Origin: Halorubrum californiense DSM 19288
Lineage (GTDB): Archaea; Halobacteriota; Halobacteria; Halobacteriales; Haloferacaceae
Direction: 5' to 3'
DNA length: 35,098 bases
Assembly: GCF_000336875.1 (NCBI RefSeq)
Contig: NZ_AOJK01000010.1
Span: 31,735-66,832 of the forward strand
Under the pieces are notes generated by a model that ran no database searches, had not been told where the DNA came from, and saw only the letters and a program-made list of their open reading frames with translations. Positions 1 through 35,085 of the stretch are shown here, piece after piece. Both the position numbers and the translations under genes were made by a program. Positions within the stretch are counted from its first letter, which is position 1; every line of letters starts with the position of its first letter.

Positions 1-110
1 GGCAGTCGTGAGGCGGGCGCAGGCGACGTAAGCACCGCAACGAGGGAGCGGTAGCGACCAAGTGAGGAGCGCAGCGAGCGTGCGCCCGCCTCGCGGCTGG
101 GGCGTTGGCG
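1..110 (-). repeat. Dispersed structured repeat, copy 1 (partial, inverted)
   Basis: Read on the minus strand this matches the repeats at 16517 and 34887. It starts with CAACGCCCCAGCCGCGAGG (CAAAG in the other copies) and closes with CCTCACGACTGCC at the window edge. The arms at 3-21 and 81-99 pair over 19 positions, except two that are C-A mismatches on the minus strand and G-U wobbles on the plus strand. The rest of the element lies outside the window. It is co-oriented with and downstream of the gene at 227-685. No coding potential was recognised. From 111 to 226 nothing else is seen except the T-rich tract at 196-210. Confidence 0.75.
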
Positions 111-11964: not shown

Positions 11965-12375
11965 ATGGAAATCTCCGAGAAGCTCCTCTGTCTGTTCAGC
12001 GCGGAAGTTCGTGAGACCGACGACGGCGAGTACGTCGTCGACGTGCCCAGCCGAGAGGTCGACGCCGGATCGCTGGAGCCGGGCGAGACGTACCGCGTCG
12101 CGCTCGTCGCCCGCGACGGGTCCACGGCGTCGGCGGACGACGCCGACGCCTCGCCCTCGCGGAGCGATGACGGGCCGCAGCCCCCGGTCGAGCCGGGCGA
12201 GATGCGGTACGTCGAGATCGAGGACCTCGGCAAGCAGGGCGACGGGATCGCCCGCGTCGAGCGCGGGTACGTGATCATCGTCCCCGACACCGAGGTCGGC
12301 GAGCGCGTGAAGATCGAAGTGACCGAAGTGAAGTCCAACTTCGCCGTCGGCGAAGTCGTCGAAGAGGCGGGGTAA
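11965..12375 (+). CDS. TRAM-domain RNA-binding protein
   Basis: 136 residues. An N-terminal segment of about 50 residues (MEISEKLLCLFSAEVRETDD) precedes an acidic Ser/Asp linker. A TRAM beta-barrel at 80-134 follows: MRYVEIEDLGKQGDGIARVE and VIIVPDTEVGERVKIEV. TRAM domains bind RNA and occur alone in archaea as putative RNA chaperones, or on tRNA-modifying enzymes. Here the protein is standalone. CTATACT at about 11928-11934 is 31-37 nt upstream of the ATG and is the likely TATA box. The next gene is on the other strand and ends 90 nt downstream. Confidence 0.85.
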   Translation: MEISEKLLCLFSAEVRETDDGEYVVDVPSREVDAGSLEPGETYRVALVARDGSTASADDADASPSRSDDGPQPPVEPGEMRYVEIEDLGKQGDGIARVERGYVIIVPDTEVGERVKIEVTEVKSNFAVGEVVEEAG

Positions 12376-16162: not shown

Positions 16163-16260
16163 ACGCGGCGTCTCGGTTCGACGTTAACTACCGCTGTAGT
16201 TTGTATTTTTCCGCGTTCGAAACCAACAGTTATTATCCGACGCAGCGCGAATCGCGACGT

Positions 16261-16446
16261 ATGTCCACGTCCACGTCATCCGCGCGTGTTCGCGACGAGT
16301 CGCCGGCGCTCGTCTGTAAACGGACCGACGGCGACGGCGGCGGCGAGGTGACGTTCTTCGAGCGGGACGTCGACCCGGACGAGCGGACCACCCGGTGGAT
16401 CACGGTCCGCGAGTCCGACTGCGTTCCCCGCGACGAGTGGCGATAA
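16261..16446 (+). CDS. Small acidic haloarchaeal protein
   Basis: 61 residues, no membrane segment. After a Ser/Thr-rich start it has ESPALVCKRTDGDGGGEVTFFERD and ends DERTTRWITVRESDCVPRDEWR-like (last residues CVPRDEWR). The pattern of a short strand pair with WITVRESD resembles tiny haloarchaeal domain proteins of unknown function (DUF7511-like, from memory, unverified). AGTTATTATCC at about 16228-16238 lies at promoter distance and supports the ATG at 16261. Base use follows the high third-position GC of its neighbours. The structured repeat copy 2 begins 70 nt downstream on the same strand. Confidence 0.6.
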   Translation: MSTSTSSARVRDESPALVCKRTDGDGGGEVTFFERDVDPDERTTRWITVRESDCVPRDEWR

Positions 16447-16516
16447 TATCGGTTTGGCTGCGGTTTCGGGGTTTATCTATAACTCATCGCTAGCGGAGCG
16501 GCGGCAATTCCCTCCT

Positions 16517-16690
16517 CCAAAGCCCCAGCCGCGAGGACTCGCACGACTCGCTGCGCGCCTCGCTCGCTACGCTCGCTGCGGTGCTTGCGTCGTCGGGCTT
16601 CGCCCTCGCGGCTGCCCCTTTGAGTCCCACCCAGCACAGCACCGCAGCCTCACGCCTCCCCAGCCTCGTCGCTCACGCCCTACGGGCGTT
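16517..16690 (+). repeat. Dispersed structured repeat, copy 2
   Basis: The element starts CCAAAGCCCCAGCCGCGAGG. Arms CAGCCGCGAGG (16526-16536) and CCTCGCGGCTG (16604-16614) pair perfectly. Outside them CAAAG (16518-16522) pairs with CTTTG (16618-16622) across a CCC/CCC internal loop. Downstream a 24-nt block at 16648-16671 is identical to 35027-35050 in copy 3. A small hairpin ACGCCC-TAC-GGGCGT follows at about 16675-16689, then GCGCCC-TCC-GGGCGC. A TATA-like TTTATCTA lies at 16472-16479. ORFs crossing it have no recognisable product. The 340-nt gap between genes (16447-16786) holds this element. Confidence 0.8.
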
Positions 16691-16786
16691 CGCGACTCCC
16701 TCGCGCGTGCTGTCTCGCGCCCTCCGGGCGCTCGCAGGCACGCGCCACCGCACCGAGTTCGGTGAGAAACAGTCGCCGCGAGTCGG

Positions 16787-34785: not shown

Positions 34786-34886
34786 CTGAGCGGGCGGAAC
34801 CGGTGCGGTCAGGCGGTTATTTGTAAGCCGAGTTGGGTTTTCGGGAAATGTTTATAAGTGAAACGGCGGACCAGAGACGACTACTG

Positions 34887-35085
34887 CCAAAGCCCCAGTC
34901 GCGAGGGTTCGGTGCGCTCGCTGTGGTCCTCGGCGCTCACTTCGTTCGCCCCTGCGGTCCTTGCGTCGCGCGCCTTCGCCCTCGCGACTGCCCATTTGAG
35001 TCCCGCCCAACCGCACAGCGACCGCACCTCACGCCTCCCCAGCCTCGTCGGTGGTCCTCCGCTTCGCTCCGGACCACCGACTCCA
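34887..35085 (+). repeat. Dispersed structured repeat, copy 3
   Basis: The element starts CCAAAGCCCCAGTCGCGAGGG. Arms 34896-34907 (CAGTCGCGAGGG) and 34979-34990 (CCCTCGCGACTG) pair perfectly, and CAAA (34888-34891) pairs with TTTG (34995-34998). A 24-nt block at 35027-35050 is identical to copy 2. Then GGTGGTCC (35050-35057) pairs with GGACCACC (35071-35078), where copy 2 has a different hairpin. TTTATAAG at 34851-34858 is a TATA-like box 36 nt before the element. The 313-nt gene-free end of the window (34786-35098) holds this element; the DNA between 34786 and 34850 shows only T-rich stretches. Confidence 0.8.

Follow-up and report, generated by a model that had tools for sequence, protein, structure and literature searches.

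The window analysed here, a stretch of 35,098 nucleotides from Halorubrum californiense DSM 19288, contains three copies of a repeated element whose core is an imperfect hairpin of about 120 nt, hairpin I (hpI). Each of the three copies lies downstream of a gene and is co-oriented with it. The contig terminates at the window's own end, so that copy 3 is cut short. The features are as follows.

1..108, minus strand: copy 1, hpI; its C-rich strand is on the minus strand, and its 3' end is lost to the window start and to N in the contig
16472..16482, plus strand: AT-rich, TATA-like TTTATCTATAA outside copy 2, a possible promoter box or element end
16517..16632, plus strand: copy 2, hpI, with the C-rich strand as written, CCAAAGCCCCAGCCGCGAGG ... 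CCTCGCGGCTGCCCCTTTGAGTCCCACCC; covariance-model match
16648..16671, plus strand: copy 2, 24-nt linker block CCTCACGCCTCCCCAGCCTCGTCG, conserved in the family
16668..16696, plus strand: copy 2, hairpin II, a predicted stem; a variable cassette that differs among species at this same locus
16703..16745, plus strand: copy 2, hairpin III, GCGCGTGC ... GCACGCGC
16746-16752, plus strand: conserved end CACCGCA, directly after hairpin III of copy 2
34851..34857, plus strand: TATA-like TTTATAA outside copy 3
34887..35008, plus strand: copy 3, hpI, from the sequence and as a model match
35027..35050, plus strand: copy 3, 24-nt linker block with the same letters as in copy 2
35047..35081, plus strand: copy 3, hairpin II; the contig end removes hairpin III

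An earlier note on this DNA had reported the copies at 16517 and 34887 and an inverted one at the window start, and all three are present, both in the sequence and as covariance-model matches. Its other readings of the letters are largely borne out. The C-G pair at stem position 4 does become T-A between copies 2 and 3, the 24-nt block is identical in these two copies, and TATA-like strings lie 45 and 36 nt upstream of them. Two details need correction. The G.T wobble noted on the plus strand of copy 1 is there, but a second G.T also occurs in the same stem, and the arm motif described as shared does not extend to copy 1, which has CCAACGCCCC rather than CCAAAGCCCC and is also interrupted by the contig N.

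The covariance search that the note had proposed revealed a family far larger than these three copies. Exact matches to the arm sequence CCTCGCGRCTGCCC occur at 53 sites in the genome (two of them, L026 and one in L033, look coding and were later dropped), and 98 sites match with one mismatch, versus 25 for the reversed pattern. In the loci taken for the CCTCGCGRCTGCCC pattern, the opposite arm, RAAGCCCCAGYCG, has 63 matches, versus 2 in the reversed control. Judged against these reversed controls, the repeats are not due to chance. A covariance model of hpI built from 35 copies gave 111 matches in the window's own genome at E<=0.1, and these fall at 97 distinct places; for five of the matches, E exceeds 0.001. 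Because this search scored 150 of 9387 first-look candidates, copies of the family may be missed. In one Halorubrum genome, extrapolation from 14 copies in 180 kb suggests about 240 copies.

On the C-rich strand, the full Halorubrum element starts with an AT-rich string, followed by GAACACCNCC and hpI (CCRAAGCCCCAGYCG-arm ... arm-CRGCTGCCCCTTYGAGTCCCRCCC), and continues with a linker containing CCTCACGCCTCCCCAGCCTCG, the variable hairpin II, hairpin III and CACCGCA. Its length is about 240-300 nt, nested insertions not counted. Contigs C10, C23, C26, C32 and C58 of the window's genome end in or next to element copies; the repeat therefore probably breaks the assembly, and the copy numbers are underestimates. 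This is also one practical reason to recognize the family, given that a high-copy and apparently unannotated repeat of haloarchaea disturbs assemblies.

Covariation and strand preference of hairpin I

The compensated changes on which the earlier note had based its stem were tested in an alignment of 35 of 41 copies that were taken from an anchored pattern, and they proved to be massive. The six copies omitted (L015, L022, L031, L040 and both L047 copies) have loops that are longer, shorter, interrupted or inverted. Standard pairs make up 91.8% of the cells, versus 79.8% in shuffled controls, and 19 of 36 hpI pairs changed on both sides (13.6 shuffled). There are 158 cells changed on both sides, as compared to 55, and the covariation score of 0.321 compares with 0.107 for shuffled alignments and with at most 0.080 for slid partners. 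Further pair types show only a modest increase in number (44 versus 38.7), a value reached by 14 of 500 shuffles, while the four other covariation measures were reached by none of 500. It is important to emphasize that covariation beyond a shuffled control fits a hairpin in DNA equally well as one in RNA.

The covarying pairs extend into the loop region, where single ones alternate with near-invariant pyrimidine mismatches. These U.C and C.U mismatches correspond to tandem G.A/A.G on the opposite strand. At one orthologous locus compared across species, the arms differ at several to many positions and complementarity is kept. Other genera keep the plan of the hairpin with arms that are mostly different; on the G-rich strand, the cross-genus plan is GGGTGGGACTGAAAGGGGC - stem - GACGNAAGCACYGCAG - hairpin - GAGGAGCGCAGCGAG - stem - GGGGGCTTTC. 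Correction of one arm by the other at the level of DNA is not favoured as the sole cause of the covariation, since short pairs covary between invariant mismatches. A G-quadruplex (GGG-GGG-GGGG-hairpin-GGGG) was also considered. Variants in the genus of Halonotius roseus carry only GG..GG, GGG and GGG runs, and for this reason it is not favoured.

Inversion of the inner segment is rare, with one case among 195 pattern matches, in addition to L040 and L153, which the pattern missed. At L040:2712, L097 and L153, the inner loop is inverted with respect to the stem around it, as recombination between the arms would produce.

A hairpin that functions as RNA should accumulate G.U pairs on the functional strand in great excess over A.C mismatches. 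In the RNase P RNA of 30 genomes of the same genus, which served as a control, we counted 70 G.U and 3 A.C in 2040 cells. For hpI, the corresponding counts in the model alignment were 33 and 32, with 15 of the 33 contributed by one column; this count used 81 of 84 rows (L061:1510, L137:272 and window:1-108 were dropped) and columns with at least 60% Watson-Crick pairs. An anchored count over the 126 hairpins that have at least 9 of 14 pairs (1512 arm cells) found 10 G.T and 31 A.C on the C-rich strand, i.e., 31:10 on the G-rich strand, and 17 of the 31 A.C cells sit at one position. This asymmetry leans to a single functional strand, either RNA or single-stranded DNA. However, it falls well short of the asymmetry in RNase P RNA. 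The predicted folding energy is lower for the G-rich strand in 73 of 81 cases. Taking together the weak wobble bias, the folding energy and the G.A mismatches, hpI leans weakly to the G-rich strand, without an RNA-like wobble asymmetry.

Distribution and genomic context

At E<=0.001, the hpI model matches in 46 of 59 relatives, including 33 of 34 congeners. At E<=0.0001, matches were found in 113 of 148 genomes and, within the family, in 21 of 28 genera sampled. In eight genomes selected from other genera, the model matches 29-90 times each, and the genera among the matches listed in a pattern scan include Halonotius, Haloarcula, Halorussus, Haladaptatus, Halomarina and Natronococcus. Plasmids carry the element too: 24 haloarchaeal plasmid records match, mostly partially, and no annotated element lies beneath any match in these 24 records. 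Phage records contained no copies, nor did viral contigs when searched by exact pattern.

The family is apparently a large, widespread and high-copy haloarchaeal repeat that lacks annotation. The earlier note gave no name for it, and this holds as far as we searched. There was no Rfam match at the gathering score (weak sub-gathering matches occurred at E<=10, the best with an E-value of 0.22), and searches of the open-licence literature with motif strings and general terms found no published description of the hpI hairpin. Longer strings of the form seen in other genera are absent from open-licence papers; short strings, taken from the Halorubrum form and from the IS6-type ends described below, matched papers that, among those listed, are all unrelated, with none archaeal by title. 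The available parts of PMC3119063, PMC7986276, PMC10544981, PMC6011602 and PMC3404096 do not describe the element.

We determined neighbouring genes on both sides for 35 of 41 copies, using a home-made gene caller that overlooked a small ORF at 16260-16446 and that named some far neighbours. Among the 21 copies in gaps between tandem genes, 12 are co-oriented with the genes and 9 are opposed. A further 12 copies lie between convergent genes and 2 between divergent genes, one of the 2 being doubtful, such that a gene 3' end faces 33 of the 35 copies from at least one side. Copies seldom occupy divergent gaps, and the element has no fixed direction relative to genes. The location downstream of a co-oriented gene that the earlier note had observed is correct for the three window copies and does not generalize. 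We therefore rejected a co-oriented 3'-UTR element as a general reading. Separately, the RNase P RNA gene has an element copy nearby, no more than a few hundred bases away, in four or more Halorubrum genomes (G000:C17:11709-11831 and 12002-12314; also G028, G029 and G183).

Signs of mobility in the Halonotius genus and probable decay in Halorubrum

In the genus of Halonotius roseus (below, the Halonotius genus), hpI lies inside short non-coding elements with imperfect inverted ends of about 15 bp, similar to GTASTGTTCAGATAA. The end pattern has 49 matches in this genus, versus 5 for its reversal. The earlier note had named terminal duplications and empty sites as signs of a mobile element, and both were found here, together with matching IS6-type ends. 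At L126, a 395-bp stretch with the direct repeat CACGCGGCGGT is absent from G080 and G117, in which the site is uninterrupted and the flanks join cleanly, with neither element nor repeat. The element is also missing from G136 and G128, where the flanks have diverged, and presence versus absence was established at this one locus.

Including L126, eight hpI-bearing copies in the Halonotius genus have flanking direct repeats of 7-11 bp. Repeats of 8 and 9 bp occur at L295 and, in G117, at L297. In a set of nine distinct pairs, for which there was no control, boundary repeats were present in three, including L126, and not in the other six. Four of five further cases, read by eye, have repeats of 9, 10, 8 and 7 bp (L361, L363, L364 and L367), and another hpI copy in Halonotius roseus (G102:C4:206192) has one of 8 bp. 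A scripted test found a direct repeat in 3 of 56 end pairs and in none of 56 mispaired ends. Some of the longer repeats may include chance matches.

An element of about 690 bp has the same ends as the hpI elements, a 10-bp repeat and an open frame of 213 aa, which is an IS6-family transposase (NF033587, E 7.3e-56; PF13610, E 1.8e-8). The shared ends suggest that such a transposase might move the hpI elements of the Halonotius genus in trans. A tail of CTGAACA or TTGAACA is present in 18 of 101 distinct hpI tails from outside Halorubrum, as compared to 0.85% of random windows. Sixteen of these 18 tails belong to the Halonotius genus or to uncultured Halobacteriales and two to Haloarcula-type genomes. 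In several genera, such as Halorussus and Haladaptatus, tandem tail modules take the place of IS6-type ends. At L156 (in G181), GGCTCTGTTGAAATCC is located beside an hpI element and resembles an IS6-type end.

Within Halorubrum, we took 30 loci that correspond to the position of window copy 2, with flanks about 82 to 99% identical to those in the window, and 23 of them have both flanks. hpI is present in 17 of the 23, deleted or truncated in 3, and the element is absent in 3. Among the 17 loci that have hpI, two carry small insertions inside it and one has an inverted loop. At two further loci, the element is missing in a number of species. Over 160-180 kb of synteny, the pattern occurs 14 times in G149, 15 times in G181, 11 times in G029 and twice in G023, with many loci in common and with relics of the element at two loci in G023. 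Since G023 has 57 model matches genome-wide, either its losses are regional or the pattern missed copies. One hairpin II cassette recurs at five separate loci of the window's genome and also in other species. We read this pattern as old insertions with decay and probable exchange of sequence between copies.

The ends of the Halorubrum copies are less clear. AT strings similar to TTTATAAA occur to the left of 62 of 103 copies, where they are TATA-like strings 20-75 nt upstream, and to the right of 37 of 103; in random windows, genes included, the frequency is about 1%. These strings differ from the IS6-type end, and they could be promoters or ordinary intergenic AT. Among 44 copies, chosen for having such a string on each side, we found no excess of target duplications over shuffled pairs (6 copies with at least 7 bp, where about 3 are expected). 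The Halorubrum insertions look old. Given that target repeats were not detected there and that the ends are suggested by AT strings only, our claim for the window copies is one of homology to a mobile element, and not of mobility.

Interpretation and known systems

We propose, with a probability of about 0.72, that the elements as a whole are mobile DNA repeats of Halobacteria, MITE-like and non-autonomous, and form a superfamily with the imperfect hpI hairpin as its core. The Halorubrum repeats are most likely descendants of mobile elements in which the hairpin has been strongly kept. The earlier note had suggested either a structured RNA or a mobile palindromic element. The mobile half of this suggestion is supported through the relatives of the window copies rather than by these copies themselves. 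The RNA half is in agreement with the covariation, but the strong one-strand excess of G.U pairs that RNase P RNA exhibits in the same genus was not found.

As a mechanism, the Halorubrum copies would be old and largely immobile, would trade sequence among themselves and would be tolerated behind gene 3' ends. A MITE needs no conserved internal structure, and thus the label of MITE alone leaves hpI unexplained. What is maintained is probably the truly folded, single-stranded form of the hairpin, in either DNA or RNA, and more likely that of the G-rich strand. A more specific proposal is that hpI is a working module of single-stranded RNA or DNA, maintained throughout the class by haloarchaea or by their mobile elements. 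It would be a G-rich hairpin with tandem G.A mismatches that is bound by a dedicated factor, that has been spread by MITEs with different ends and that became a standard part of gene ends in Halorubrum. We consider this idea tentative and unlikely.

The case for a structured non-coding RNA, in which each copy is a small RNA gene and hpI its functional fold, draws on several of the above observations. hpI covaries strongly, the alternating mismatches can be read as tandem G.A/A.G on the more stable G-rich strand, and an internal motif of that strand, AAGCAC..GCGCAGCGAG, is kept across genera with few changes. Transcription might start from the TATA-like box, which would produce the C-rich strand and which most Halorubrum copies have upstream, or it might come from the other side and produce the G-rich strand. 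However, wobble pairs are rare and nearly symmetric, which differs from RNase P RNA of the genus, and by eye the TATA-like string is not consistent in the tails of other genera. Moreover, many loci lack a copy or have lost it, and the orientation of copies to neighbouring genes is free. We therefore regard an RNA gene as unlikely. It is also possible to view the element as a bidirectional gene-end element, whose 3'-end hairpins are under selection as terminators or as RNA-stabilising ends. Nearly all copies are faced by a gene 3' end, just two lie between divergent genes, and copies recur close to the RNase P RNA gene, but any inserted element that avoids promoter regions yields the same pattern. 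In addition, orthologous gene pairs free of the element exist at all three loci compared across the genus, and the arms and the number of modules vary freely, so this explanation is very unlikely.

An alternative is transposition as single-stranded DNA in the manner of IS200/IS605 elements (PATE or REP-like), in which a Y1 transposase would bind hpI as a subterminal hairpin. This would account for the palindromic core, and the haloarchaeal host and the unrelated nested repeats are also as in PATEs (PMC3119063). We searched for hpI at 28 OrfB_IS605 matches in the genome (21 above the curated cut-off), covering up to about 1.5 kb of flank for each, and it was present at none, the best model E-value being 0.031; the link was rejected on this basis. 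Also, PATEs by definition have neither inverted ends nor direct repeats, and both are present on the copies of the Halonotius genus. An origin of this kind is thus extremely improbable, and we return to the superfamily of MITE-like repeats as the preferred explanation.

This explanation can be compared with described repeats. PMC7986276 reports that IS6-family elements produce 8-bp repeats, include short archaeal members and have cTGTt in their ends. Two MITEs of this family, 227 and 336 bp in length, are mentioned there, and the comparison with these two is by description only. Like IS6-family MITEs, the copies in the Halonotius genus are short and non-coding, have IS6-like ends and repeats compatible with 8 bp, and share a genome with an element that encodes an IS6 transposase. 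Unlike such MITEs, they contain a covarying core of 120 nt that is common to many genera, and the Halorubrum copies have neither IS6 ends nor detectable target repeats.

High-copy intergenic palindromes located at gene ends are known in bacteria as REP/BIME. The hpI element is likewise a high-copy palindrome at gene ends, but it is much larger and composite, and its internal mismatch pattern is fixed. The PATEs of Haloquadratum walsbyi resemble it in being haloarchaeal and transposase-free, in having a palindrome near an end and in hosting other small repeats; they differ in that, according to PMC3119063, they resemble the ends of IS605 and have no inverted ends or target duplications, whereas hpI shows no link to IS605 loci here. 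This definition, combined with the lack of hpI at those IS605-type loci that were found, excludes an identity with PATEs. SMR-A of Haloquadratum is also similar in its size of about 110 bp, its inverted repeats and its dozens of copies, but, according to the same source, it inserts into PATEs without target duplication, while hpI elements themselves host nested repeats.

The best reading is a palindromic repeat that is MITE-like and whose structured core is unusually conserved. It is also an awkward case for RNA discovery: covariation is normally taken as proof of an RNA, yet the hairpin lies within mobile DNA and exhibits little asymmetry of wobbles. If the hairpin is a bound structure of DNA or RNA, it would represent a new interaction between haloarchaeal hosts and their elements. 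If it is not, the family would call for caution in reading covariation where the copies of a repeat family exchange sequence.

Several smaller repeats are associated with the element. In about nine copies (L001, L012, L023, L030, L031, L041, L043, L047 and L054), another palindromic repeat, CCGGAAGACGTTCCTGCTCGC...CGCGGGAACGCACAG and variants, has inserted a short distance 3' of the hpI 3' arm, after GAGTCCCRCCC. More small palindromes (TCATCAGAACGC... and TCGAGACGCC...) are nested in the hpI loop at L012, L027, L047 (minus copy), L021, L159 and L185, and resemble the nesting reported for Haloquadratum repeats. Finally, hpI is preceded by tandem modules of about 57 nt (AAAGCCCCAGCCGCTCG + TTTATAAATAG...GAACACC), from one to three in number, at L009, L044, L149, L158, L181 and in stretches of G029, and similar tandem tails also occur in Halorussus and Haladaptatus loci.
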